From Phytoactinopolyspora mesophila (GTDB taxonomy: Bacteria > Actinomycetota > Actinomycetes > Jiangellales > Jiangellaceae): 64,000 nucleotides of DNA. The stretch spans positions 1 to 64,000 of the forward strand of contig NZ_WLZY01000016.1 of the NCBI RefSeq assembly GCF_010122465.1. The letters run 5' to 3'. The translations under genes were made by a program, and so were the position numbers. Shown here one piece after another: positions 31,995-54,627 of the stretch; within the stretch, counting starts at the first letter, position 1, and the number at the start of each line of letters is the position of its first letter. The notes below the pieces were generated by a model, which saw only the letters and a list, made by a program, of their open reading frames with translations, ran no database searches and was not told the origin of the DNA.

Positions 31995-32007
<13 letters not shown>
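31975..32007 (+). terminator. Terminator hairpin fused to the left attachment repeat
   Basis: AGAGGCCGGTTTC (31975-31987) and GAAACCGGCCTCT (31995-32007) form a perfect 13-bp stem with a 7-base loop. The right arm is the start of the 64-bp attachment repeat. It is placed to end transcription of the AhpD-like genes and originally of tRNA-Pro. At the right junction, the element supplies a different, less perfect left arm. Confidence 0.75.
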
Positions 32008-32058
<51 letters not shown>

Positions 32059-33683: not shown

Positions 33684-34136
33684 GTGCCGCTATGTCGCAC
33701 AGATGATGGGCCGCGTCGTCTGCGAGCGGTGTGGCTGGGTCCTCGTGGGGCGCGTTTCTGGGTCGAATGGACTTATGTCCAGTGGGCCGTTTTCGCGGGT
33801 CTCGCTCTGCTTTTGAGCGCGATGGTGCTGGCCTTGATCTGGCCATTCAACGCGCAGCTCGCGGCGATGGCGTGCGTTCCGTGGGGGACTATGGGCTCCT
33901 ATGTTCTCACCAAATTGATCATGGAACACGCGGATCACGACCGGCCACTTCGGTACTGGCGCTGGGCGCTTCGGTCTGAGTTCAAACGGTCACGCAGGAC
34001 TCCCAGGGAACAAGCGGTGCGCGTAGTTGCTCCACCGGTCGTTGACATGTCTCCGGGTGTGCGTGACGCCCTGAGAACGGGCCGACGGTCACGTCCTCGT
34101 CCACATCTTGGACTCGTAGTGGAGGATTCGAAATGA
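33684..34136 (+). CDS. Two-helix membrane protein, VirB3/PrgI-like position
   Basis: 150 residues, GTG start directly after the previous stop. Two predicted helices (VQWAVFAGLALLLSAMVLAL and MACVPWGTMGSYVLTKLIM) are followed by a soluble basic C-terminus (RSEFKRSRRTPREQ). Proteins of this size and topology immediately upstream of a VirB4 ATPase are usually VirB3- or PrgI-type channel components. Its TGA overlaps the ATG of the ATPase gene (34133). Confidence 0.7.
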   Translation: MPLCRTDDGPRRLRAVWLGPRGARFWVEWTYVQWAVFAGLALLLSAMVLALIWPFNAQLAAMACVPWGTMGSYVLTKLIMEHADHDRPLRYWRWALRSEFKRSRRTPREQAVRVVAPPVVDMSPGVRDALRTGRRSRPRPHLGLVVEDSK

Positions 34137-36760
34137 GCAAGTTCAGGAATATCGCGGCACGTTTCGTCGGTGGGGAACGGGTCTCGGAGCTGGATCTATC
34201 AAGTCGTTTGATTATTGGTCATCTTCAGATTACCGGGACATCGTTGTGGGCCTGGTACCAGCTCGGCTCACAGAAGTGGCAGTTCACGACCACTACTCAG
34301 CGAGAGCAATTGTGGGACCAGCTCACTGCTCGTTTGGCGCGGCTGGCAGGGCACGTGATCAAGCTGCGCACGACGACCAAGCCTTACCCCTCCTTTGAGT
34401 TCGCGCGCGATCTAGATCACGACACTCCGCATCCCCTGCCGGATGTTCCGAGTGCGCCGACTTGGGACGACTACCTCGAGCGTCAACAGCGACGGCTGCA
34501 TACACGTTTGCTTGATGAGAAGGTCGTCACGCTTGGCGTACGTGTTGGCCCGGCGCCGAAGCGCGACGTTGTCAATGCGCTCCGGAATCTTCAGACACAT
34601 CCGGTATCTAGGTCTGAGGTAGGAAAGCTGGTCGATCGGCTCCGTACCTTGGACGACATTGTGGCCGGTAGCGGGTTGAACGGTCGTCCGCTCGATGCCG
34701 GCCAGATGGCCTGGCTGATGTATCGGTCCGTGGGCATGGGAATGCCCGTGCCAACACAAGCGGGCATGGCAGGCAAGGTTTGGGAATCAGATGATCTTCT
34801 GGCATTCACCGATCCTGTCAACTGGTTCTATCGGCCTTGGTCGCCCACGATTCGTGTGGCCGGGACTATCGCCGGTCGGGAGATCGTCCGTCACGTTGCT
34901 GTCCTCACCGTGGGCCGCATGGCAGATAGACGATTTCCAGAGGACGGCGGTCCGCCCTGGATGCTGGAGACAGACCGGCTCGATTTCCCAGTTGAGTGGT
35001 CGCTCTCGGGGCTGCTCGTTCCACCCCGTGAACTCACCCGCACCGTGGAGTACGAACGCAACCGTGCCCAGGGTATTGAATCGCACTACGCCGAGCATGC
35101 GGAGGAACCACCGCCTGCCGTCGCGCGCGCCATCGAACAGGCGACGCAGACGTACGACGAGGTAACAGAGGGCGACAGCCGCGTTGCCGTTCGCTTCGCT
35201 GGTCCGATTCGTCTGGCGGTTCACGCACCATCGCGTGATGAGGCACTGAGTCGCGTTCGCAGAGTGATCGACCAGTACGGGGACCGTCTCCGGATCGAGA
35301 TTGCACATCCACAGGGTCAGCACGAGTTGCTGCGAGAGTTCATCCCAGGTGAACCGTGGTCTACGACTGGTTACCAGCGCCGGTTTCCTGTGGGGTACCT
35401 GGCGGCTGCCATGCCACATGTCTCGTCCAGTCTCGGCACGCCGACCGGTCCGTATCTCGGTTACACCATCGGATCGGCCAGGCGCGCGGTCAGGCATGAC
35501 GGTCACTATCCGATGGAACATCTGAACGCACCTGGCCTCGTGCCCGTTACCGCCGAGCCTGGCGCCGGAAAGTCTTACCTGCTAGGAACCCTCGCCTACC
35601 ACGCGGTGCGCCGTGGCCAGCCCACGTGCATTCTTGATCCATCTGGGCCACTTGCGCGCTTATGCGAGTTGTCTGAGCTGTCACCCTTTGCGCGTCAACT
35701 TGATCTGACCGAGGCAGACCCTGGGACCTTGGCCCCTTGGCAGCTGATCCCGGAGCCGAGGCGGAACGAGTTTCAGTCCGACAAGGAGTATCAGCGTGCC
35801 GTCCGCCGCGCACACGCAGAGCGGCAGCAACTGGGATATGACGTGATGCGGATGATGTTGCCCAACTCGTTGTTGACGAATCACGAGGCAGATACAGCGT
35901 TGCATGATGCTATCCGTGTACTCGGGGGCGCGCCGTCAGTGAACCCGAGCAGAGCCATCGAGGTTCTAGATGCCCACGCATCGAACATTTCGAAGGAGCT
36001 GGCGCAGCACCTCCGTGACGCCGCGAAATTCCCATTGGGTGAGCTGATATTTCCCGAGCACAGTGAGCCTATCGAGCCCTCGGCTGCTGACGATAAAACC
36101 CTCGTTGTAATAACGATGCCCGGCTTGCAGGTGCCCGATCCAGATATGCCGCGCGAGAGATGGTCTACAGAAGAACTGTACGCGGCGCCGTTGATGCATC
36201 TCGCTGCGTTCTATACGGCGCGGTTTATCTACGGCCGCCGTCGCGGAATTCGGAAGAACCTATTAATGGATGAGAACCATATAATGGCGCGTTGGGGTTC
36301 GGGTCGAGCGTTGTTTGTTCGCCTTGCACGCGACAGCAGAAAGCATGATACTGCTACCTACGCATCAAGCCAGCACCCAATGGATCACCTAGATATCGGG
36401 AAAATTGAAGCGTTGATCGGTAGTGCATTTGTTGGAAGGCTCGAAGATGAGGAAGCCGCGACTGCTGCAATGCGCTTGCTGCGAGCGCCAGAGGAATATG
36501 CGAATGCTGCAATGTCGCTCTCGCCGAAGATGACAGGAGAGATCGCGTCTGATCGGTCGGGCGAGTTTCTTTATCGTGATGCTTCGGGCCGGATTGAGAC
36601 GTTTCGTGTGGATGCGCGATGGCATCCAGAGCTGCATGAGGCGTTAATTTCGACGCCTGGCAGGGAGTCCGGACAAGCGCGCGTTCAACCTTTACACCAA
36701 TCGGTCGGTAGTTCTGCGCCATTCCTAGATCCGGGGTATTTCGATGATGAAGCGGCGTAG
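34133..36760 (+). CDS. VirB4-like conjugation/secretion ATPase
   Basis: 875-residue ATPase of a type IV secretion-like system. The N-terminal half (about 1-430) is the VirB4-specific domain. The P-loop is EPGAGKS (G477-S481) and Walker B is NLLMDEN (D713, E714). The following QHPMDHL and the helical tail are typical of the VirB4/TraC C-terminal domain. It lacks membrane helices and would energise the channel on the cytoplasmic face. It is coupled to the VirB3-like gene (ATGA). Pelagic similarity aside, it is distinct from the FtsK-type TraB at 49769, so the element has two DNA-transfer-type motors. Confidence 0.85.
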   Translation: MSKFRNIAARFVGGERVSELDLSSRLIIGHLQITGTSLWAWYQLGSQKWQFTTTTQREQLWDQLTARLARLAGHVIKLRTTTKPYPSFEFARDLDHDTPHPLPDVPSAPTWDDYLERQQRRLHTRLLDEKVVTLGVRVGPAPKRDVVNALRNLQTHPVSRSEVGKLVDRLRTLDDIVAGSGLNGRPLDAGQMAWLMYRSVGMGMPVPTQAGMAGKVWESDDLLAFTDPVNWFYRPWSPTIRVAGTIAGREIVRHVAVLTVGRMADRRFPEDGGPPWMLETDRLDFPVEWSLSGLLVPPRELTRTVEYERNRAQGIESHYAEHAEEPPPAVARAIEQATQTYDEVTEGDSRVAVRFAGPIRLAVHAPSRDEALSRVRRVIDQYGDRLRIEIAHPQGQHELLREFIPGEPWSTTGYQRRFPVGYLAAAMPHVSSSLGTPTGPYLGYTIGSARRAVRHDGHYPMEHLNAPGLVPVTAEPGAGKSYLLGTLAYHAVRRGQPTCILDPSGPLARLCELSELSPFARQLDLTEADPGTLAPWQLIPEPRRNEFQSDKEYQRAVRRAHAERQQLGYDVMRMMLPNSLLTNHEADTALHDAIRVLGGAPSVNPSRAIEVLDAHASNISKELAQHLRDAAKFPLGELIFPEHSEPIEPSAADDKTLVVITMPGLQVPDPDMPRERWSTEELYAAPLMHLAAFYTARFIYGRRRGIRKNLLMDENHIMARWGSGRALFVRLARDSRKHDTATYASSQHPMDHLDIGKIEALIGSAFVGRLEDEEAATAAMRLLRAPEEYANAAMSLSPKMTGEIASDRSGEFLYRDASGRIETFRVDARWHPELHEALISTPGRESGQARVQPLHQSVGSSAPFLDPGYFDDEAA

Positions 36761-41946: not shown

Positions 41947-44490
41947 ATGGCCACAGCGAGGTTAGGCGAGGTTATGAGTGAGAGTAAGGAGTCACCCGGC
42001 AGCGCGCTTGAACGTGAACTATTGGACGACTCCGGTTCGTCCGAAGAGTTACCAGTTCAGATAAGCTTTGAGATAATTAGACTCTTTTCCGAAGGTCTAT
42101 ACCAAAGTCCACATAAGGCGATAGAAGAGCTCGTATCCAACAGTTATGATGCAGGCGCAAGGAATGTTCATGTTCTCATTCCTCGATCTGGTAGCGATTC
42201 GCCGGAACTTCAGGATTCGCTTTGGGTGATTGATGATGGCACCGGTATGGATGCCAGCGGATTCAAACAACTTTGGTTAGTAGCTGAGTCGTCGAAGAAT
42301 GATCAGCCGGCACTCTCAGGCAGAAGCCCTATCGGCCAATTCGGCATCGGTAAGCTTGCAGCGTACGTCCTGGCATGGAGGCTTACGCATATTAGCAAGA
42401 AGGATGGCCGTTACTACCTCGCCACGATGGACTTCAGGCAAGTGCGAGGGCGTCGGCAGAACGACCCTGCCGCACCGCCGGTGACAGTTCCGCTACAGGA
42501 AGTGAACGAAGAGCGTGCACAATCGCTACTCGCGGAAATTGAAAACCGTGACGGCGCTGCGTGGCAGTTGTTGTTCGGAGACGAGTCGTCTGAGAGCTGG
42601 ACCGCCGCGGCACTCACTGATTTTAAGGATCTGTTTTCAAAATTTCGTCCTGGCGTCCTGAGTTGGGTGCTTCGGACCGGATTGCCTTTGGTGAGTGATT
42701 TCACGATCTTTCTTGATGGCGCCGCCCTAGAGTCTGCCAAGGAGGAAGGGAATCTGCTTCTAGCACTTCCAGTAGGCGGCAAAGAAGACGAGCAAGCCGA
42801 AAAGCTCGAATTTACGATTACGGAAACTGGCGTGCAGATCCCGGGCATCGAGGGGGAGGTGCAGGGGACAGCAAAACTTTATGAGACTCCTCTCTCTAGA
42901 GGGAAATCGTTGCAGTATGGCCGAAGTCATGGGTTCTTTGTCCGTGTCCGTGGACGGGTCATCAACTTAGAAGATGAATTATTCGGCATCGAGGCGTTGA
43001 ACCACGCAGCCTGGTCGAGATTTGTATTCGAGGTCAATGTAGATGGCCTGAGGGAATTCTTGTTGTCGTCCCGCGAAGGTGTACGTGAATCTGAGCCTAT
43101 CTACCTTTTGAAGGAGTATCTGCGCGCGAAATTCAATGCTTGTCGGGCGTACTACGAAAAGCAAAAGAGGCAGGAGCTAGTCGGGCTAGATATAAAGCTC
43201 TTGCTTCAGGACGCCTCGGCGAGCGTGTTAGCGGAGCCGCTAATCGAAGCTGTACGTCAGTCACTCACTGCGAGCAAACAGCCGTCTCATTACATTACAT
43301 CGCCCACCGATATCCCAGAGCATCAGCGCGAATCCTGGCTGACAGAGTTCGAGAAAGAGCTAGCTAAAGGGCCTTTTGACGAACTTGAATTTCAGAATGT
43401 TGGGCCTTATGATCGTCTGGCGGAATATAACGCGGCTGACCGAAAGCTTATCGTGAACGAGGAGCATCCCTTTGTTGCGAAGGTTATTAGTCATTCGAAG
43501 AATATGACACCGGCAACTCTCTTCGCCACTTCGGAGATAATCACTGATGCCTTGATTCGAGAGGCGGGCATCGACCCGATCATTTCTCTAGAGCTTTTCT
43601 CGCTCCGGGACCGTGCGCTGCGACAAATTGCTGGTGACCAAGGGCCAGACCCGGCTACAGTACTGCGGCACTTGTCAATTGCCGATCAGGACAAGGATGC
43701 CCTTGAACGCGCTGTGGGTGAAGCATTCATTACATTGGGATTCCGATATGATCGTCGTGGTGGAAACCGAGGTGGGCCGGATGGCGTTCTGGATGCTCGC
43801 CTTGGATTCGGTGATCGTCAGGTTGAGGATTTCCGAGTTGTTTACGATGCTAAAACGACTGCGAGCTCAAGCATCTCTGTAGGGCACTTAGACTTCGGGG
43901 CCCTTTGGGACTTTAAGCTCAGTGAGGATGCTGATCACGGGTTTATCATCGGTAAAGCTTTTCAAGGTCAAGATGATCCTGAATCGGCGGTTAATCGCCG
44001 CACTTCTCAAGGTCGAGGGGATCGACCTATGACGGTGATGACAACAGCGCAACTAAAGAGACTTGTGGAACTGCATTATCAATTCGGCGTAACGCTCATA
44101 CAGATACGCAAGTTCTTTGTGGAAGCGTTAACGTTTGCTGAAGTAACCGAGTTTTTGGATAGCTTGGAAGCTGAGCTGAGCACTGAGCAGCCCCCTGTCC
44201 CACTTCGGCGGCTGCTACATGGACTTGAGAGGGAAAAGGATGACCCCTTGAGCAGGCCGAATATTATCGCTGTTCGAGCTCAAGATCAGACATTGAAGGC
44301 ATACGAGGTGGAACGTTTAGCTGCTGCTCTTCGTGCCGTCCAGACAATCGTAGGATCGCGTTGGATAGAAGTGAACGAAGCCAACAACGATGTTCGTATG
44401 GGTCATACAGCTGATCAGATTCTGGCGGAGCTCGACAGGCGGTCTCAGAAGGAACTTGGTCTGACGGCCCGAACTGGCGAGGGGCCCTAG
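41947..44490 (+). CDS. GHKL (MutL/MORC/Hsp90-type) ATPase fused to a PD-(D/E)xK-like nuclease domain
   Basis: 847 residues. The N-terminus has the full Bergerat ATP fold: N-box EELVSNSYDAGA (N65, D68), G1 box DDGTGM (97-101) and G2 box GQFGIGK (G130-K136). The C-terminal half has GGPDG (D612) and, after a strand, VVYDAKTT (D634, K636), matching the D...(D/E)xK core of restriction-type nucleases. Later GHLDFGALWDF and a helical tail follow. MutL/MORC-like ATPases linked to methyltransferases have been described in restriction-modification loci, and this pair fits that pattern. The ATG at 41974 (MSESKE) is an alternative start. The methyltransferase gene begins one base after its stop. Codon use is less GC-rich than in the element's backbone. 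Confidence 0.8.
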   Translation: MATARLGEVMSESKESPGSALERELLDDSGSSEELPVQISFEIIRLFSEGLYQSPHKAIEELVSNSYDAGARNVHVLIPRSGSDSPELQDSLWVIDDGTGMDASGFKQLWLVAESSKNDQPALSGRSPIGQFGIGKLAAYVLAWRLTHISKKDGRYYLATMDFRQVRGRRQNDPAAPPVTVPLQEVNEERAQSLLAEIENRDGAAWQLLFGDESSESWTAAALTDFKDLFSKFRPGVLSWVLRTGLPLVSDFTIFLDGAALESAKEEGNLLLALPVGGKEDEQAEKLEFTITETGVQIPGIEGEVQGTAKLYETPLSRGKSLQYGRSHGFFVRVRGRVINLEDELFGIEALNHAAWSRFVFEVNVDGLREFLLSSREGVRESEPIYLLKEYLRAKFNACRAYYEKQKRQELVGLDIKLLLQDASASVLAEPLIEAVRQSLTASKQPSHYITSPTDIPEHQRESWLTEFEKELAKGPFDELEFQNVGPYDRLAEYNAADRKLIVNEEHPFVAKVISHSKNMTPATLFATSEIITDALIREAGIDPIISLELFSLRDRALRQIAGDQGPDPATVLRHLSIADQDKDALERAVGEAFITLGFRYDRRGGNRGGPDGVLDARLGFGDRQVEDFRVVYDAKTTASSSISVGHLDFGALWDFKLSEDADHGFIIGKAFQGQDDPESAVNRRTSQGRGDRPMTVMTTAQLKRLVELHYQFGVTLIQIRKFFVEALTFAEVTEFLDSLEAELSTEQPPVPLRRLLHGLEREKDDPLSRPNIIAVRAQDQTLKAYEVERLAAALRAVQTIVGSRWIEVNEANNDVRMGHTADQILAELDRRSQKELGLTARTGEGP

Positions 44491-44491
44491 G

Positions 44492-45661
44492 GTGCGTGCG
44501 CCACACCCATTTCCCGCGCGAATGGCGCCGGAACTCGCCCTTTCCAGCGTATCCCGGGCCGATGGTGAGCCGATACTCGATCCAATGTGCGGTTCTGGCA
44601 TGGTGCTTAAGGCCGCGCTTCAGGCGGGGAAACAAGCGATCGGTTTCGATCTAGACCCGCTTGCTGTGCTTATGAGCCGTGTGTGGACGACAGCAGCTCC
44701 AGATGACCTTGAAGGATGCGCCGCGTCGGTCATAGCGAGGGCTAATACAATATCGGTTCCGGACTTGCCCTGGATCGACTTCGATCACGAGACGGCTGAA
44801 TTTGTAGACTTCTGGTTCGGGAAGACTCAGCAGCATGATCTTCGAAAGATTGCTGCTGTTTTGTGGGAACTTGATGACTCGGCTGAACATAATGCGCTGA
44901 GGCTGGCACTGAGTCGTACGATCATCACTAAAGATCGGGGCGCCTCGCTCGCGAGTGACGTCTCCCATAGCAGGCCTCATCGTACGCGAACTACCAACGA
45001 CTACGATGTGATATCGGGCTTCAAGCTTGCTGCCCGAAATGTAGGGCGTATACTCGCCGTTTCGTCGACATCGGGTGCTGCGAGTGTAAGTCTTGGTGAT
45101 GCAAGAGATCTAAAAGGGCTGCCGGACAATTCCGCCGGCATGATTGTTACTTCACCGCCTTATCTGAATGCAATAGATTACCTGCGAGGGCATCGGCTAG
45201 CATTGGTTTGGTTGGGCTATCGGGTTGGCGATTTGCGCGCAGTGCGGTCTTCGAGCATTGGGGCCGAGCGTGGTTTAAGTGAGGAGTCGATTGAAGCTGA
45301 GTTGCGCGATATAATAAGAGAGTTGTCGATTGATGAGTATGACCGCCAACTTGGTCGGATGCTAGTACGGTATTTCTTCGACTTGGATCGCATGATGGCT
45401 GAGGCAAGTCGAGTGCTGAAGCATGGCTCAGATGCTGTCTTCGTGGTTGGAAATTCCACCATTAGGTCTCAGTTCGTTGACAACGCAACGCTTACCGCGC
45501 GCGCGGCTGAGCGGCACGGCTTACGGCTTGTCGATCGGTCGGAGCGCGAGCTGCCTGCCAACCGCCGGTATCTGCCGCCACCTCGGATCAACGCGAGTGA
45601 TCAGCTATCGCGGCGGATGAGGACCGAAGTGATACTGAGACTTAGCAAGTCTGCCGCGTGA
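44492..45661 (+). CDS. DNA methyltransferase, motif order I then IV (TSPPY)
   Basis: 389-residue SAM-dependent amino-methyltransferase acting on exocyclic adenine or cytosine N. It begins HPFPARMAPELA. Motif I is LDPMCGSG (D30-G36), and catalytic motif IV is TSPPY (220-224) followed by LNAIDYLRGHR. Motif I before IV, with about 185 residues between, differs from the IV-then-I order of common beta-class enzymes. The insert may hold target recognition. GTG start at 44492, one base after the GHKL-nuclease stop, implies coupled expression, with this enzyme protecting self DNA. No separate specificity subunit is present. Confidence 0.85.
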   Translation: MRAPHPFPARMAPELALSSVSRADGEPILDPMCGSGMVLKAALQAGKQAIGFDLDPLAVLMSRVWTTAAPDDLEGCAASVIARANTISVPDLPWIDFDHETAEFVDFWFGKTQQHDLRKIAAVLWELDDSAEHNALRLALSRTIITKDRGASLASDVSHSRPHRTRTTNDYDVISGFKLAARNVGRILAVSSTSGAASVSLGDARDLKGLPDNSAGMIVTSPPYLNAIDYLRGHRLALVWLGYRVGDLRAVRSSSIGAERGLSEESIEAELRDIIRELSIDEYDRQLGRMLVRYFFDLDRMMAEASRVLKHGSDAVFVVGNSTIRSQFVDNATLTARAAERHGLRLVDRSERELPANRRYLPPPRINASDQLSRRMRTEVILRLSKSAA

Positions 45662-45985
45662 GAGGGACGACGGGCCTGTGTGCGGGCGGTTGCTGGCGTG
45701 GTATGTGTTCTGGTCTGCGCGTGTGGGGACGCTGCCCCGGAGGGACCGGCCGCCAGGCCGCATGCCCGAAGGGCAGCGTCCCCACACGCGCAGACCAGGG
45801 CAGCTAGCTGATCTTGATCTAGTAGAGGTCAACTCGGCAACCACGCCCGTTGATGCTCCGGCGTTGTTGAGCCGTGGGCGTCGTCGTGGGGGACAGAGGG
45901 TTGCCGCCTGACCGATGCGCTCGCGGTACCTGCAACTAAGAGCGAATGTCGGTTAGTCTTGAGGCACGGTGAGGAGGTGATCGCG
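45662..45985. other. 324-base gap holding the 27-bp inverted repeat
   Basis: I see no supported gene between the methyltransferase stop and the antitoxin start. The gap holds the inverted repeat at 45711-45797 and, at its right end, the GAGGAGG ribosome binding site (45971-45977) of the antitoxin gene. Confidence 0.6.
45711..45797. repeat. Perfect 27-bp inverted repeat with a 33-base structured loop
   Basis: Bases 45711-45737 (beginning TGGTCTGCGCGTGTGGGG) are exactly complementary to 45771-45797. The loop contains GGCCGCCAGGCC, and TGCCC-GAA-GGGCA sits at the base of the right arm. It begins 50 bases after the methyltransferase stop. There is no T-run, so it is more than an ordinary terminator. 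Candidates are a bidirectional terminator, a structured RNA, or a single-strand origin/transfer site of the element. Confidence 0.85.
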
Positions 45986-46165
45986 ATGTCTGAACCAGCA
46001 GTCGCGCCTGATGCGCTTGACGAGGCTAGCGCCTCGTTCTGGGGTAAGCCTGATCTGGACGAGGTGATGGCTGGTGCTGAGCCTCTCCGGGAAGATGAAT
46101 CGTTCGAGATCGCTGACCTCACTGATGACGAGTGGGATGTGTTTATTCGAGCGATCCACGAGTGA
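45986..46165 (+). CDS. Small acidic antitoxin-like protein
   Basis: 59 residues, very acidic, starting MSEPAVAPDALDEAS and ending DLTDDEWDVFIRAIHE. There is no clear DNA-binding motif and the family is not recognised. GAGGAGG (45971-45977) lies 8 bases upstream of the ATG. Its TGA overlaps the ATG of the PIN-domain gene (TGATG), the usual antitoxin-first order. By size, charge and coupling it is the probable antitoxin that neutralises the PIN nuclease. Confidence 0.75.
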   Translation: MSEPAVAPDALDEASASFWGKPDLDEVMAGAEPLREDESFEIADLTDDEWDVFIRAIHE

Positions 46166-46590
46166 TGGCCGCAACCGTACTCCTCGATACGAATGTCTTC
46201 ACTGCCTGGCTAAGACCACGGTCGCCCCTCGTCAAGCTGTATGGCAGGCATGTCTATGGGAATCGGCTTGCAGTTGCTCAGCAGACTGTCGCCGAAGCTC
46301 GGTATGGAGCGGTAGTCGCTGGATGGGGTGACAAGCGCCTTGAACAGCTTGAACGCCTAATCCGCCGTAGTCGGCCGCTGCCTGTTGATGACGAGACGGT
46401 GTGGTCGTATGCCAGGTTGCGGGCAGAATGCCGCCGTCTTGGCCACCCTCTGCATCAGAAAGAGCACTTGGGTGATCTATGGATCGCTGCTACCGCGATG
46501 CGTTGGCAGATCCCGCTAGTCGCTCACGATGCCGTGTTTCTTGGCTGTCCGAGCATTGAGCTTCGCACGGAGTTGGAGCGTGACGGCTAG
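46165..46590 (+). CDS. PIN-domain ribonuclease toxin, VapC-like
   Basis: 141 residues spanning one PIN domain. The acidic active-site residues are visible: D8 in VLLDTNVF, E44 in TVAEARYG, D104 in HLGDLWIAATA, and D122 in VAHDAVF. PIN toxins cleave tRNA or other RNA when their antitoxin is lost. Coupled to the 59-residue acidic gene upstream, it would serve to stabilise the element or act in defence. The ATG at 46165 overlaps the antitoxin stop; the frame upstream to 46132 lies within the antitoxin and is not used. Confidence 0.87.
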   Translation: MAATVLLDTNVFTAWLRPRSPLVKLYGRHVYGNRLAVAQQTVAEARYGAVVAGWGDKRLEQLERLIRRSRPLPVDDETVWSYARLRAECRRLGHPLHQKEHLGDLWIAATAMRWQIPLVAHDAVFLGCPSIELRTELERDG

Positions 46591-49712: not shown

Positions 49713-49772
49713 ATGTCCAAGCGTACGAGCGCACTCACACCACGTCATCGGCGGTGGTCGTGGTGGGCGTGA
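49713..49772 (+). CDS. 19-residue leader peptide coupled to traB
   Basis: An ATG at 49713 with AAGGGAAGGG upstream opens a frame reading MSKRTSALTPRHRRWSWWA, with TGA at 49770-49772. The traB GTG at 49769 overlaps this stop (GTGA). The peptide is strongly basic and ends with a Trp-Ser-Trp-Trp run. Translational coupling, or attenuation together with the stem-loop at 49634, is the plausible role. No homologue is recognised. Confidence 0.6.
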   Translation: MSKRTSALTPRHRRWSWWA

Positions 49773-51202
49773 ACTTCGCATCTGATCAGTCGAATGGTGA
49801 TGCATACGAGCTACCGGAGCGCACTGACCCGGAAGAGCCGCTAGCCAATTCGCTGTTCGTCGGATTGATCTTGCTGCTGTTGGTAGTGCCGTGGTACGCG
49901 ATTCGGCATCCGATCATCTCGGTGCTTGTGGGCGGGTCGGCGTGGATCGCCCTGCTTCACGGGCCGTTCGGGCTGGCTGTCGCATATGTCGCCGTGGCCT
50001 CAGTTCTCGTCATCTGGCGGCTAGTGCACAAGCCCTCATTTGTCCGTTTCGTATCTCGCCCGGTGCGGTCGAAGTGGCGTGGGGCGTGGGTGTATCGGCG
50101 GCGCTGGACGTCGGCTATGCACATGTGTGGCTTGAGCAAGGGCTTCGGAGCGAAACGCTATGTTCCGCATGTTGTGCGGGTTCGCTCGGATGAGTTCGGC
50201 GACCGGGTTCGGATCAAGCTTCTGATGGGCCAGTCGGCCGATGACTTCGAGGCCAAGACCGAAGCGCTCGCCTCTACTTTCGGTGCCACCGGCTGCCGGG
50301 TGGAGACGGGCAAACCCGGCGTGATCTGGCTGCACTTCAAACACCGCGACGCGCTGATGGTTCCGCTGCCTGCACCAAAGGTGGGCAGCGTGGTGAACCT
50401 CGGAGCGCTGTCGGTCGGGCGATGTGAGGATGGGCAGCCGTGGCGGCTGCAACTGCTCGGCACTCACGTCCTAGTCGCTGGGGCCACCAATTCAGGGAAG
50501 GGATCAGTGATCTGGTCCACGCTTCGCGCCCTGGCTCCAGGGGTGCGCGCCGGTTTGGTGGACGTGTGGGCCGTCGATCCGAAGGGCGGGGTCGAACTCG
50601 CGTCTGGCGCACCGATGTTCGCTCGGTTCGCCTACGAGCCCGAAGACATGGTGGCACTCGTCGAGGACGCCGCTGCGCTCATTCGGAACCGGGCGGCCAC
50701 GATGCGTGGTCACACTCGGCTCCATACCCCCACCACGAGTGAACCGTTCGTGCTGCTCGTGGTCGACGAGTTGGCGTTCCTGACGGCGTACATGCCCGAC
50801 CGTGCTCTGAGCAAGCGGCTAAATGCCGCGCTGTCCGTGGTGCTGTCGCAGGGCCGTGCGGTCGGGGTTTCAGTGATGGCAGCCGTGCAGGATCCACGCA
50901 AGGAGATCATCAATATGCGTGATCTGTTCCCCACTCGCATCGGGTTGCGGCTGACCGAATCAGACCAGGTGGACATGGTCCTCGGCGACGGTGCACGTAA
51001 ACGTGGCGCGCGGTGTGACCAGATCCCCGAATCCACGCCCGGCATCGGCTACGTACTTCTGGAGGGGCAACGCGAACCCACACGCGTGCGCGCCGCCTAC
51101 GTGTCCGACTACGACATCTCCGCCATGACGGCCACCTATCAAGCCGCACGGACCGACCATGCGCTGTCTGTTCCTGTCGTCGCTGGGGAGGTCGTGGGAT
51201 GA
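49769..51202 (+). CDS. traB: FtsK/SpoIIIE-type DNA translocase TraB
   Basis: About 477 residues. Two N-terminal membrane helices (SLFVGLILLLLVVPWYAI; FGLAVAYVAVASVLVIW) are followed by a RecA-like motor: Walker A GATNSGKGS (238-246) and Walker B LLVVDELAFL. TraB proteins of AICEs move double-stranded DNA between mycelial cells as hexamers, with no relaxase. I start at GTG 49769, which overlaps the 19-residue leader stop; the frame continues to 49754. A C-terminal winged helix is not evident. The stop overlaps the next gene's ATG (51199). Confidence 0.9.
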   Translation: MNFASDQSNGDAYELPERTDPEEPLANSLFVGLILLLLVVPWYAIRHPIISVLVGGSAWIALLHGPFGLAVAYVAVASVLVIWRLVHKPSFVRFVSRPVRSKWRGAWVYRRRWTSAMHMCGLSKGFGAKRYVPHVVRVRSDEFGDRVRIKLLMGQSADDFEAKTEALASTFGATGCRVETGKPGVIWLHFKHRDALMVPLPAPKVGSVVNLGALSVGRCEDGQPWRLQLLGTHVLVAGATNSGKGSVIWSTLRALAPGVRAGLVDVWAVDPKGGVELASGAPMFARFAYEPEDMVALVEDAAALIRNRAATMRGHTRLHTPTTSEPFVLLVVDELAFLTAYMPDRALSKRLNAALSVVLSQGRAVGVSVMAAVQDPRKEIINMRDLFPTRIGLRLTESDQVDMVLGDGARKRGARCDQIPESTPGIGYVLLEGQREPTRVRAAYVSDYDISAMTATYQAARTDHALSVPVVAGEVVG

Positions 51203-51487: not shown

Positions 51488-53035
51488 ATGACATTGCCTC
51501 GACTGGATAACGACACGGTACGCGGGCTCGCCGTCGCGGAGCGGGTGTGTGTGCGCCCGATCATGTCCCGGCTGACCGATACCGAAACCGGCGACACCAG
51601 GACGGTCCTGATCCCGTGCGGCTCCACGAGAGAGACCGTGTGCCCGTCGTGCGCCGACCGGGCGCGTCGGTTGCGGATGCAGCAATGCCGCGAAGGGTGG
51701 CATCTCACAGAAGAACCCACCACCGACCACGACGACAACGGCCAGAACGACGACGAGAACGAGGAGAACGACAGCGACGGCAACGGCCAGGACGACGGGG
51801 ATGGTGGGGCGCGTCGGGTCCGCTCCACTCGTCGCCGCGACGACGCCGACGACCTACCCCGACCGCCGAAACAGCACACCACCCTCGGACGCAGCTTCGA
51901 CACCCCGGACGGGAAGACCTACCGGCCGTCGATGTTTGTCACCCTCACCATGCCCAGCTACGGGCGCGTGACCCGTGAAGGCGTCCCGGTTGATCCGGAC
52001 AGCTATGACTACCGGCGCGCCGCGTTGGACGCGTTGCATTTCCCGAAGGTGGTGGACCGGTTCTGGCAGAACCTGCGCCGCGCCACCGGTATGCCAGTGC
52101 AGTACTTCGCCACCGTCGAACCACAACGCCGACTCGCCCCGCACCTGCACGCCGCCGTACGGGGCACCTTCCCACGTGCCCTGATCCGCCAAGTGGTCGC
52201 GGCCACCTACCACCAGCTCTGGTGGCCACCCCATGACGAGGTCGTCTACGACGGTGACCGGTTGCCGGTGTGGGATGAGCACGCGGGCGGCTACTGCGAC
52301 CCGGACACCGGGGCGTTGCTGCCGACCTGGGACGCGGCCCTCGATGCGCTCGACGCCGACCCCGACGCGGAACCCGCACATGTCGTCCGGTTCGGGACCC
52401 AGATCGACATGCAAGGCATCCTCGCCGGAACCCCCGCCGCTGACCGCCGCGTCGGCTACCTCACCAAATACCTCACCAAGAACATCTCCGACGACATCGA
52501 CACCGACGAGCCCTCGGCGGCCCGCCAAGCCCACATCGACCGCATCGCTCACGAGGTCCGCTGGCTGCCCTGCGCGCCGACATGCGCGAACTGGCTCCGC
52601 TTCGGTGTCCAGCCCAAGAACACCCGTCCTGGATTGGTACCGGGGCTGTGCCGATCCAAAGCACATGACCGGGACCATCTCGGCCTCGGTGGCCGTCGTG
52701 TGCTCGTGTCGCGCCGCTGGACCGGCAAGACACTCACCGAACACAAGGCCGACCGCGCCGCCGTCGTCCGCACCGTCCTCGCTGAGGCGGGTGTCGAGAT
52801 GGACGACCACGGCGAGTTCTCGGCAACCGCCACCCGCTCGGACGGACAGCCTCGCTACGTGTGGTCAACCGTCAAACCCGGCGACACCGACGCGCCCTCC
52901 TACTTGCGGCTCATCGCCCACGCCATCACCCGAAGACAGGCATGGCGCGAGCAATACGAGCAGGCCAAACAACGCGCCGGACCACCCGGCCCGAATCTTT
53001 CGGCAACCATCCCCGGAGCCGCCACAGCGGCATGA
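51488..53035 (+). CDS. repSA: RepSA-like rolling-circle replication initiator
   Basis: 515 residues. An N-terminal zinc-type cluster (VCPSCADRARRLRMQQC) leads into the catalytic region, which holds the HUH-type metal motif LAPHLHAAV (H219, H221). Candidate catalytic tyrosines are in YLTKYLTKNI (Y324, Y328). It should nick the element's origin so that it replicates as a rolling circle after excision. An Asp/Asn/Glu-rich insert of about 40 residues (77-117; NGQNDDENEENDSDGNGQDD) lies between zinc cluster and catalytic domain, unusual in composition. It sits upstream of xis and int, as in pSAM2. Confidence 0.87.
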   Translation: MTLPRLDNDTVRGLAVAERVCVRPIMSRLTDTETGDTRTVLIPCGSTRETVCPSCADRARRLRMQQCREGWHLTEEPTTDHDDNGQNDDENEENDSDGNGQDDGDGGARRVRSTRRRDDADDLPRPPKQHTTLGRSFDTPDGKTYRPSMFVTLTMPSYGRVTREGVPVDPDSYDYRRAALDALHFPKVVDRFWQNLRRATGMPVQYFATVEPQRRLAPHLHAAVRGTFPRALIRQVVAATYHQLWWPPHDEVVYDGDRLPVWDEHAGGYCDPDTGALLPTWDAALDALDADPDAEPAHVVRFGTQIDMQGILAGTPAADRRVGYLTKYLTKNISDDIDTDEPSAARQAHIDRIAHEVRWLPCAPTCANWLRFGVQPKNTRPGLVPGLCRSKAHDRDHLGLGGRRVLVSRRWTGKTLTEHKADRAAVVRTVLAEAGVEMDDHGEFSATATRSDGQPRYVWSTVKPGDTDAPSYLRLIAHAITRRQAWREQYEQAKQRAGPPGPNLSATIPGAATAA

Positions 53036-53050: not shown

Positions 53051-53248
53051 ATGACGGAGACAACGATCAAACCCAGGTGGCACACGACAGCCGAAGTAGC
53101 GGGGATGCTCGGCTTCGGTTTGTCTAAGACGAAAATGCTGGTCATCACCGGTGAGATTCGCTCGGTCAAGGTCGGCGCGCATCGGCGCATCCTGCCGGAA
53201 TGGGTGGATGAGTACGTGGCCCGCGTAACTGAAGAGTGCGCGGCATGA
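53051..53248 (+). CDS. xis: Excisionase (helix-turn-helix)
   Basis: 65 residues. WHTTAEVAGMLGFGLSKTKM and SVKVGAHRRILPEWVDEYVA form the MerR/Xis-like winged helix of small directionality factors that bend DNA at the attachment sites. AAAGGAAGAGG precedes the ATG. Its stop overlaps the integrase ATG (ATGA at 53245), the usual arrangement for xis-int pairs. Confidence 0.88.
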   Translation: MTETTIKPRWHTTAEVAGMLGFGLSKTKMLVITGEIRSVKVGAHRRILPEWVDEYVARVTEECAA

Positions 53249-54477
53249 GCGGGCGAGCCAGGGCGAACGGCGAAGGATCGATCTTTCCGTACCGCAACGG
53301 TTTCGCCGCGTATGCGTGGGTCGTCCGGCCGGACGGTCGCCGGATGCGCAAGTACGTCTACGGCAAGACGCGTGAGATCGTCCACGAGAAATGGATCAAA
53401 CTCCAGCAAGACGCTAAACAAGGTCCGATGACGTCCACGGACATGACGGTCGCGGACTACATGACTTACTGGCTGGAGGAGGTGATCAAACCGAACAAGG
53501 CACCGCTGACGTACGCGACGTATGAGACGTTCATACGGCTCTACATCGTGCCCGGCCTCGGAGCCGAGAAGCTGTCTCGCCTACAGGTTCAACCGCGCAA
53601 GGTTCAGAAATGGCTCAACGCCGTTGCCGCTACGTGCCAGTGCTGCGCACAGGGCAAGGACGCGGCGCGCCATCCCGAGCGTCGCCGCTGTTGCGCTCTT
53701 GAACGCCCTGAGTGCTGTGAAAACCTCCTGAGTCCCCGAAGCTTGAGCGACATCCGCACGTGCTTTCGATCGGCCTTATCTAATGCGATCGACGACGAGT
53801 TGATCACCAAGAACGTAGCCAAGTCGATCAAACTCCCGACCGTACGCAAGCCAAAACGGAAGCGGTGGACTAGCGAACAGGCACGGCAGTTCCTGGAGTC
53901 GGCTCGCTCGGACTGCGACCCCTTCTACGCGGCATACGTCTTGGTGCTGGTGATGGCGATGCGCAAGGGCGAAGTCCTTGGTCTCCTGGTCGATGCGGTC
54001 GATCTCGACGCTGGCGAGCTTGGCATCGAGCACCAGTTACAACGTGTCCGCCGCCAGCTTCTACACCGCGAGACGAAAACGGAGGCATCAGACGACACAC
54101 TCCCGCTCCCGGGCATCGCATCGACGGCACTCAGCCAGCGCTTGGCTCGGCGAGACCGCGACCGCGAGCAGGCAGGCGAGGCCTGGCAGGAGTTCGGCCT
54201 GATGTTCTGCACTCGCTATGGCACACCAATCGAGCCGCGCAACTTCAACCGTGCTTGGGATGCGCGGTGCCGTAAGGCGGAAGTGCCGAAGATCTCGGTG
54301 CACGACGGCCGCCGAACCTGTGGCTCACTGCTCGCTGACCTCGATGTCCACCCGCGCGTCGCCATGCGCATCCTGCGTCACGCACAATTCGCCGTCACCA
54401 TGGAGATCTACACAGAGGTGTCCTCGGAAGCCACACAGGCGGGCCTCAAACGGCTCGGAGAGAGCTTGGAAAGGTGA
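53245..54477 (+). CDS. int: Tyrosine integrase with Cys-rich insertion
   Basis: 410 residues. The N-terminal arm-binding region (GEGSIFPYRNGFAAYAWVVR), a core-binding domain, and the catalytic domain are all present. R240 is in AMRKGE, H353 and R356 in HDGRRTC, H379 in RHAQF, and the nucleophile is Y389 in EIYTEV. Between the core-binding helices lies a segment (about 131-158; TCQCCAQGKD, RRCCALERPECC) with seven cysteines that could bind zinc. It recombines the attP and attB sites in tRNA-Pro. ATG at 53245 overlaps xis. The gene ends 55 bases before the attR repeat. Confidence 0.93.
   Translation: MSGRARANGEGSIFPYRNGFAAYAWVVRPDGRRMRKYVYGKTREIVHEKWIKLQQDAKQGPMTSTDMTVADYMTYWLEEVIKPNKAPLTYATYETFIRLYIVPGLGAEKLSRLQVQPRKVQKWLNAVAATCQCCAQGKDAARHPERRRCCALERPECCENLLSPRSLSDIRTCFRSALSNAIDDELITKNVAKSIKLPTVRKPKRKRWTSEQARQFLESARSDCDPFYAAYVLVLVMAMRKGEVLGLLVDAVDLDAGELGIEHQLQRVRRQLLHRETKTEASDDTLPLPGIASTALSQRLARRDRDREQAGEAWQEFGLMFCTRYGTPIEPRNFNRAWDARCRKAEVPKISVHDGRRTCGSLLADLDVHPRVAMRILRHAQFAVTMEIYTEVSSEATQAGLKRLGESLER

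Positions 54478-54532: not shown

Positions 54533-54627
<95 letters not shown>

Follow-up and report, generated by a model that had tools for sequence, protein, structure and literature searches.

GHKL-type ATPases have been placed in restriction loci before. Iyer and colleagues described paraMORC families in such loci, one of which, paraMORC3, has a restriction-fold domain at its C-terminus (PMC2292703), and VcSduA, which joins a GHKL domain to a PD-(D/E)xK (Shedu) nuclease, restricts phage and needs both sites to do so (PMC12137116). Two-component-like GHKL genes near restriction systems have also been reported (PMC8011034), and the proteins treated in PMC7824862 differ from the pair described here, as far as the accessible parts of these articles go. 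BbrUII and HgiDII (model NF050001), named as restriction enzymes by NCBI, have a GHKL N-terminus as well and come with the characterised methyltransferases M.BbrUII and M.HgiDII; the latter, in the accessible part of its description, is a 5-methylcytosine (5mC) enzyme acting on GTCGAC (PMC5867850). Here, we analyzed 64,000 nucleotides of Phytoactinopolyspora mesophila DNA (contig NZ_WLZY01000016.1, positions 1 to 64,000, hereafter the window), which is part of contig C16 in a 6.5-Mb genome. An Ms_IGR-7 RNA and the pSAM2-type RepSA in it fit an actinobacterial origin. The window carries two adjacent genes, one encoding a GHKL ATPase fused to a predicted PD-(D/E)xK nuclease and the other a predicted amino-DNA-methyltransferase. 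We give a probability of roughly 70% to the reading that this pair is a two-gene, type II-like restriction-modification system carried by an integrative element, based on its domain content, its conserved catalytic residues, the repeated linkage of the two genes and the mobile setting. A first-pass annotation of the same letters had proposed a two-gene restriction system carried as cargo. The nuclease fold, the link to a methyltransferase and the cargo status that it proposed all find support below, and its remark that MutL/MORC-like ATPases are known in restriction-modification loci agrees with the paraMORC families (PMC2292703, accessible part); the pair is less novel than it implied, since fusions of GHKL domains to nucleases were already known. 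The two genes and their parts are the following:

41947-44490, forward strand: GHKL ATPase-PD-(D/E)xK nuclease gene, 847 residues (open reading frame (ORF) list, Pfam, family conservation)
42106-42468, forward strand: GHKL/Bergerat ATP-binding domain, residues 54-174 (HATPase_c_3 match, Hsp90 alignment, invariance in seven of seven members)
42574-43176, forward strand: putative S5-like transducer region, about residues 210-410 (conservation)
43648-44157, forward strand: predicted PD-(D/E)xK nuclease domain, FokI/Mrr/HindIII-like, residues 568-737 (profile and structure comparisons)
43705-43854, forward strand: nuclease core, with E587 at 43705-43707, D612 at 43780-43782, D634 at 43846-43848 and K636 at 43852-43854
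44191-44439, forward strand: winged-helix-like C-terminal segment, residues 749-831, candidate DNA-binding part (secondary structure, both models)
44492-45661, forward strand: amino-DNA-methyltransferase gene, 389 residues, GTG start (Pfam, PADLOC, family alignment)
44504-44524, 44579-44599 and 45149-45163, forward strand: methyltransferase motifs X (HPFPARM), I (DPMCGSG) and IV (TSPPY)

Both ORFs are present as first annotated, and a single base (44491) separates the stop of the ATPase-nuclease gene from the start of the methyltransferase gene. The length of 847 residues is correct for the ORF; the start is probably the ATG at 41974, which has GGCGAGG ahead of it and would give a protein of 838 residues.

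With respect to the described systems, an N-terminal GHKL ATPase and a C-terminal PD-(D/E)xK nuclease in one chain is an architecture already known from paraMORC3 and from VcSduA (Shedu type I-D), as described in the accessible parts of PMC2292703 and PMC12137116, and BbrUII/HgiDII share the GHKL part. What sets the present family apart, judging from the sequences, is a different nuclease family and a recurrent amino-methyltransferase partner. No description of this ATPase-nuclease and amino-methyltransferase combination was found in a literature search that left subscription papers mostly outside its scope and did not include REBASE. Unlike VcSduA, a single gene in the accessible part of its description (PMC12137116), the window protein has a FokI/Mrr/HindIII-like domain instead of an SduA_C match, and a methyltransferase adjoins five of the seven members of its family. 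An assignment to Shedu was rejected: the GHKL N-terminus agrees, and SduA_C (PF14082/DUF4263) matched none of 16 distinct nuclease domains (a set of 13 and a set of 7, with 4 shared) by Pfam at E up to 1, a negative to be read with the HMMER filters in mind, which drop most matches above E of about 0.1. The BbrUII/HgiDII assignment was rejected as well, as NF050001 matches only the N-terminus (residues 38-173) with 49.8 of the required 550 bits; the partner here is a predicted amino-methyltransferase, whereas that of HgiDII is the 5mC enzyme M.HgiDII (PMC5867850, accessible part). MORC/paraMORC restriction loci with helicases (Iyer and colleagues, 2008; MZA) likewise hold GHKL ATPase, DNA methylase and nuclease genes, in the accessible descriptions. 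Unlike those loci, the window pair has its nuclease fused, and the MzaB model scored 17.5 bits against 850. This assignment was rejected too, as no helicase was seen beside the pair, although the truncated family member L044 adjoins a Z1/Vsr/m5C-methylase locus. A separate locus, L228 (1501-3400), matches NF050001 over positions 1-648 of 659 at 261.8 bits, below the cut-off, and SduA_C below threshold (23.6 bits, cut-off 27), and is unmatched by our nuclease profile at E 0.01. The SduA_C match suggests that the nuclease of BbrUII/HgiDII-type restriction enzymes may be of the Shedu type.

The full-length family has seven members: the window protein, four proteins from genomes of the same phylum (L043 in G045, L045 in G279, L089 in G670 and L198 in G858), one on an IMG/VR viral contig (L104, found through the methyltransferase scan) and one on a Salarchaeum japonicum plasmid (the archaeal L182, found by tblastn of plasmids). 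Close relatives are rare. L089 is 43% identical to the window protein, and the others about 24-32%. Protein and profile searches covered 1,223 genome slots in overlapping sets; the larger ones scored no more than two candidates per genome in GHKL searches and four in methyltransferase searches, so that counts are lower bounds, and the many matches to the GHKL domain only were not counted as members. At seven genome-contig loci (L002-L008) only the ATPase end is found, with no ORF of at least 120 residues matching the nuclease profile. Among 50,697 phage records, no GHKL relative appeared at E 1e-5, and five GHKL-query scans of IMG/VR returned one distant GHKL locus (L009), the L104 contig again (two scans) and nothing (two scans). 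A further member, in G040 (L044, 1-11051), is cut by the contig end, its downstream side not being visible; genes for Vsr, an m5C methylase, NaeI, a Z1 ATPase and DUF4420 surround it, a setting that supports the restriction reading. These surroundings have the look of a dense restriction island.

The ATP-binding domain is clearly recognizable. HATPase_c_3 matches residues 54-174 with E 7e-18 (65.4 bits, cut-off 25) and is the sole Pfam family above cut-off in the 847-residue protein. The DDGTGM and GQFGIGK motifs are present, and E60, E61, N65, D68, D96, G98, M101, G130, F132, G133, G135 and K136 are invariant in all seven members, confirming the Bergerat fold proposed at first. Of the ATP-site residues then named, N65 and D68 hold, while E60 gives way to E61 as the catalytic Glu: in the Hsp90 alignment, it is E61 that pairs with the Glu preceding the ATP-site Asn by four residues (E-L-I-S-N in Hsp90, E61-L-V-S-N65 here), a position that we take to be that of the catalytic Glu. 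A PDB search with the window protein alone gave Hsp90-type chains only, among the best 60 of 94 matches, and the mutl model (NCBIfam TIGR00585) reached 25 bits against a cut-off of 180. In the middle region, R376 is invariant in the seven members, and E377 is kept in six and replaced by D in the archaeal one. By analogy with the GHKL family, and with no tool match, the region of about residues 210-410 is putatively an S5-like transducer. MORC proteins proper are marked by a GhXhhpXXRhl motif in this S5 domain (PMC2292703, accessible part).

In the second protein, motif X is followed by motif I, an insert of about 180 residues and motif IV, the TSPPY of residues 220-224, an order that we take to be that of alpha-class amino-methyltransferases. 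Pfam gave N6_N4_Mtase, UPF0020 and Methyltransf_11 above their cut-offs, and the PADLOC model MTase_II spans nearly the whole protein (E 4e-31), which bears out the TSPPY methyltransferase announced directly downstream of the ATPase. The PADLOC check suggested for the pair was thus positive for the partner, and the REase_II matches of the ATPase were weak (in six of six members). Among 10 aligned members of the methyltransferase family, HPFPARM, TSPPY and DPMxGSG are invariant, so that the S-adenosylmethionine and catalytic motifs are both kept. The SPPY motif is presumably linked to N4-cytosine methylation, and N4-cytosine would be our guess, from TSPPY, for the modified base.

A PD-(D/E)xK fold at the C-terminus of the first protein is well supported by sequence profiles together with a low-confidence model, as the first-pass annotation had expected. 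E587 and K636 are invariant in the seven members; at position 612, six members have D and one has E, and at position 634, four have D and three have E. This E-[DE]-[DE]-x-K pattern, with D/E swaps at 612 and 634, is the signature of PD-(D/E)xK enzymes at the sequence level. The residues D612 and D634-x-K636 had been numbered correctly, and are kept as [DE]612, [DE]634 and K636 throughout; the invariant E587 that precedes the core and the segment 749-831 were absent from the earlier list. Other proteins of the phylum carry the nuclease domain with no GHKL part attached, and hhalign joined the GHKL-linked set (n = 7) to the non-GHKL set (n = 9) with a probability of 99.6% (E 1.5e-24). A profile built jointly from 13 domains (4 GHKL-linked and 9 others) had FokI as its top PDB match (1fok/2fok, E 0.0017), aligned across the FokI PDG...D-x-K, with HindIII at E 0.008; the non-GHKL profile gave FokI at E 0.024 and HindIII at E 0.04. 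When the 13 domains were compared singly with Pfam (E up to 1), Mrr_cat matched 10 (best 7.8e-6), FokI_cleav_dom 3 (best E 0.0047) and RE_HindIII 1; for the seven GHKL-linked domains, Mrr_cat matched three and FokI_cleav_dom one (E 0.078).

Structure models were obtained with AlphaFold2 from two-sequence alignments. In the model covering residues 545-847, the secondary-structure elements follow the order alpha-beta-beta-beta-alpha-beta, as in a PD-(D/E)xK fold. For this model VIA-align ranked 2fok_B first (Z 7.0, root-mean-square deviation 4.5, 129 aligned residues, 18% identity; model 24-193 against FokI 403-579), clearly ahead of the next row (Z 4.4), with the warning that Z below 8 may mean only a common arrangement. 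In the model of the full protein, the GHKL part was unusable and no restriction-type nuclease was among the matches listed. A kinship of the nuclease to the FokI cleavage domain is therefore likely, though not settled. The PDG...D-x-K core and its surrounding sequence are FokI-like, as is the top structure match; unlike FokI, the nuclease is fused to a GHKL ATPase and a winged-helix-like segment, and the FokI recognition domain is absent. No single GHKL-linked member establishes the likeness to FokI (PF09254) by itself. For segment 749-831, structure alignments reached Z 6.0, a level at which only a common arrangement may be reflected.

The same nuclease domain was observed in other contexts. 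In L046 (6192-8057), it is joined to an EVE domain at the N-terminus (Pfam E 1.3e-6), and the proteins of L047 (7914-9809), L048 (814-2706), L090 (7339-9240) and L093 (7025-8959) carry this FokI/Mrr-like domain behind N-termini that resemble that of L046 by eye. These five proteins, of 621-644 residues, are candidate modification-dependent nucleases. L091 encodes a shorter non-GHKL protein with this domain and without EVE by Pfam, and in L199 (7720-9327) the nuclease domain comes first, followed by the C-terminal tail and an unplaced stretch, without a GHKL domain. Two viral-contig ORFs, L110 (1602-2543, 313 residues) and L143 (5686-6565, at least 293 residues), match the nuclease profile weakly (E 0.001 and 0.0002, respectively); the former lies just before a methyltransferase ORF and could be an ordinary type II endonuclease.

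The linkage between the two genes recurs. Among the five relatives found without a methyltransferase query, three adjoin the same methyltransferase family: it lies downstream of the GHKL-nuclease gene with a 4-bp overlap in L043 and a 1-bp overlap in L198, and is divergent and about 1 kb off in L089 (46% identity to that of the window). In L104, a locus reached through the methyltransferase, the two genes also occur as a pair and overlap by 4 bp. In total, the methyltransferase adjoins in five of the seven members (window, L043, L089, L104 and L198), which we count as linkage to an endonuclease. Within 396 genomes of the phylum, 15 hold the methyltransferase at E <= 1e-20 (with at most four candidates scored per genome), and only two exceed 500 bits (571 and 533; the next is 201). 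These are the window's genome and G045, in both of which it adjoins the GHKL-nuclease. Of 36 plasmid records carrying a methyltransferase relative, one (H26) was examined. No third gene shared beside the pair was noticed in the loci read, where no systematic test for one was made.

Other neighbors of this methyltransferase family were seen. In L103 and L183, it adjoins a two-HATPase protein and a second methyltransferase, a layout resembling that of the HEF_HK/Response_reg_2 pair of PMC8011034 (accessible part); the likeness is in layout only, and identity with that pair was rejected, as neither family was found in the three proteins at Pfam E up to 0.01. On the viral contig L106 (5669-9224), a Z1-domain ATPase gene, then a small ORF, then a methyltransferase gene of this family lie side by side and may form a second set of partners.

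The surroundings of the pair point to a mobile element, whose main features are the following:

31995-32058, no strand: left attachment (att) repeat, 64 bp, 98.4% identical to 54533-54596
34133-36760, forward strand: AAA_10 (VirB4-like) ATPase of a conjugation module (Pfam AAA_10, E 2e-24)
49754-51202, forward strand: FtsK/SpoIIIE-type transfer ATPase (Pfam FtsK_SpoIIIE, E 7e-8)
51488-53035, forward strand: pSAM2-type replication initiator RepSA (Pfam RepSA, E 1e-97)
53236-54477, forward strand: tyrosine integrase (Pfam Phage_integrase, E 6e-14)
54533-54596, no strand: right att repeat, overlapping tRNA-Pro(CGG) at 54553-54627 on the reverse strand

The att repeats, identical over 48 bp, bracket 22.6 kb that hold the pair. 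An integrase at a tRNA gene, att repeats, a pSAM2-type Rep and an FtsK-like gene are what defines an actinomycete integrative element (AICE), and all of them are present here. That the pair is cargo of a tRNA-Pro integrative element, as first claimed, is well supported because of the att repeats, the element genes, the low G+C content and the conjugation module of another genome, G204 (L236), in which four conjugation genes stand in the same order with no GHKL or methyltransferase match in the 20 kb examined. G+C content is 52.1% in the GHKL gene and 55.6% in the methyltransferase gene, against 55.8-67.5% in 2-kb steps of the window avoiding both. A joined left-right flank, as in an uninterrupted site, was not found in four other genomes of the genus, so the att repeats and the integrase carry the element claim. 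A pSAM2-type set of RepSA, FtsK and integrase is combined in the element (31995-54596) with a conjugation module of the VirB4-like kind; these two kinds of transfer module are usually separate in actinobacteria. Downstream of the methyltransferase, at 45974-46590, a small ORF with no Pfam match precedes a PIN-domain gene (46132-46590), likely a VapBC-type toxin-antitoxin pair.

Several results weigh against a restriction-modification pair with a FokI-like nuclease. In L045, no such methyltransferase is found in 18 kb, and in L182 a different amino-methyltransferase lies upstream with four genes between. Eight close methyltransferase relatives on viral contigs or a plasmid (L100-L103, L105-L107 and L183) lack a GHKL-nuclease in the DNA examined, some flanks being short. 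In a Mantel test on five pairs, the distances of the two proteins did not co-vary (r 0.27, 30 of 120 permutations as high), so that partners may have been exchanged. As for the nuclease, the GHKL-linked profile on its own found only HindIII in the PDB (E 0.067), FokI not being listed, and the window's own domain matched no Pfam family at E up to 1. The AlphaFold2 models are weak, with a mean predicted local distance difference test score of 38 for the full protein and 51 for residues 545-847, and Foldseek returned nothing for the C-terminal model at E <= 0.001.

Some of these observations would fit a stand-alone defence like that of Shedu/VcSduA, in which the GHKL-nuclease recognizes some feature of a phage and cleaves DNA unaided, and the methyltransferase is a passenger or a guard against another system. 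VcSduA acts as a single gene in the accessible part of its description (PMC12137116), L045 lacks a methyltransferase of the window's family (P0002) over 18 kb, and this family also occurs without the GHKL-nuclease. We nevertheless regard it as unlikely, given that the methyltransferase adjoins three of five independently found relatives, in tandem and in divergent arrangement, and that the 16 distinct domains hold no SduA_C match. The pair could also be an addiction module of the element, the host chromosome being restricted after element loss, so that retention is selected and defence is secondary. Its location inside the att repeats and the adjacent toxin-antitoxin-like PIN-domain gene with its small upstream ORF (46132-46590) go in this direction, but such a role is compatible with a restriction system rather than exclusive of it, and by ORF reading the other copies lie in different surroundings; we hold it to be quite improbable as the primary role.

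The EVE domain serves in reading modified bases. Its fusion to the same nuclease domain in L046, and the presence of MutL among GHKL ATPases (the 25-bit mutl match), would suit methylation-guided repair or a methylation-dependent, MutL/Vsr-like nuclease acting on hemimethylated or modified rather than unmethylated DNA. Yet the mutl score is far under its cut-off, and Pfam detected no MutS or Vsr among 11 further element proteins, making this the case to which we give very little credence. The restriction-modification reading, in turn, gains from the precedent of VcSduA, in which phage restriction needs both sites (PMC12137116, accessible part).

In a restriction-modification system of this kind, the methyltransferase would mark a short target on element and host DNA by amino-methylation, and the GHKL-nuclease would be the cognate endonuclease of matching specificity, binding DNA through its winged helix, its middle region or both. 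With ATP, the two GHKL domains in a dimer would close to form a clamp, and the clamp would pair two FokI-like nuclease domains that cut unmethylated incoming DNA, in an anti-phage or anti-plasmid role. The ATP step is suggested by the intact Bergerat motifs and by MutL, Hsp90 and VcSduA, and the endonuclease is probably gated by ATP; the dimerization step is drawn from the established behavior of FokI. Like FokI, the nuclease of the window protein would be expected to cleave DNA only in dimeric form. The complete scheme, an ATP-gated FokI-type restriction in which GHKL clamp closure, and not a second recognition event, pairs the nuclease domains on unmethylated DNA, is possible but doubtful, and we propose it tentatively.

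If true, it would describe a restriction enzyme that needs ATP binding and has neither a translocase nor a separate specificity subunit, present in actinobacteria, on a viral contig and on an archaeal plasmid. It would join the ATP-driven dimer clamp of MutL and Hsp90 with a dimer-dependent FokI-like nuclease, two mechanisms that are usually separate, and would give a testable model for the control of nucleases by GHKL domains, a question raised by the paraMORC proposal of 2008 and again by the VcSduA hypothesis. It would also help to name some mobile-element genes that are annotated only as "ATP-binding protein".

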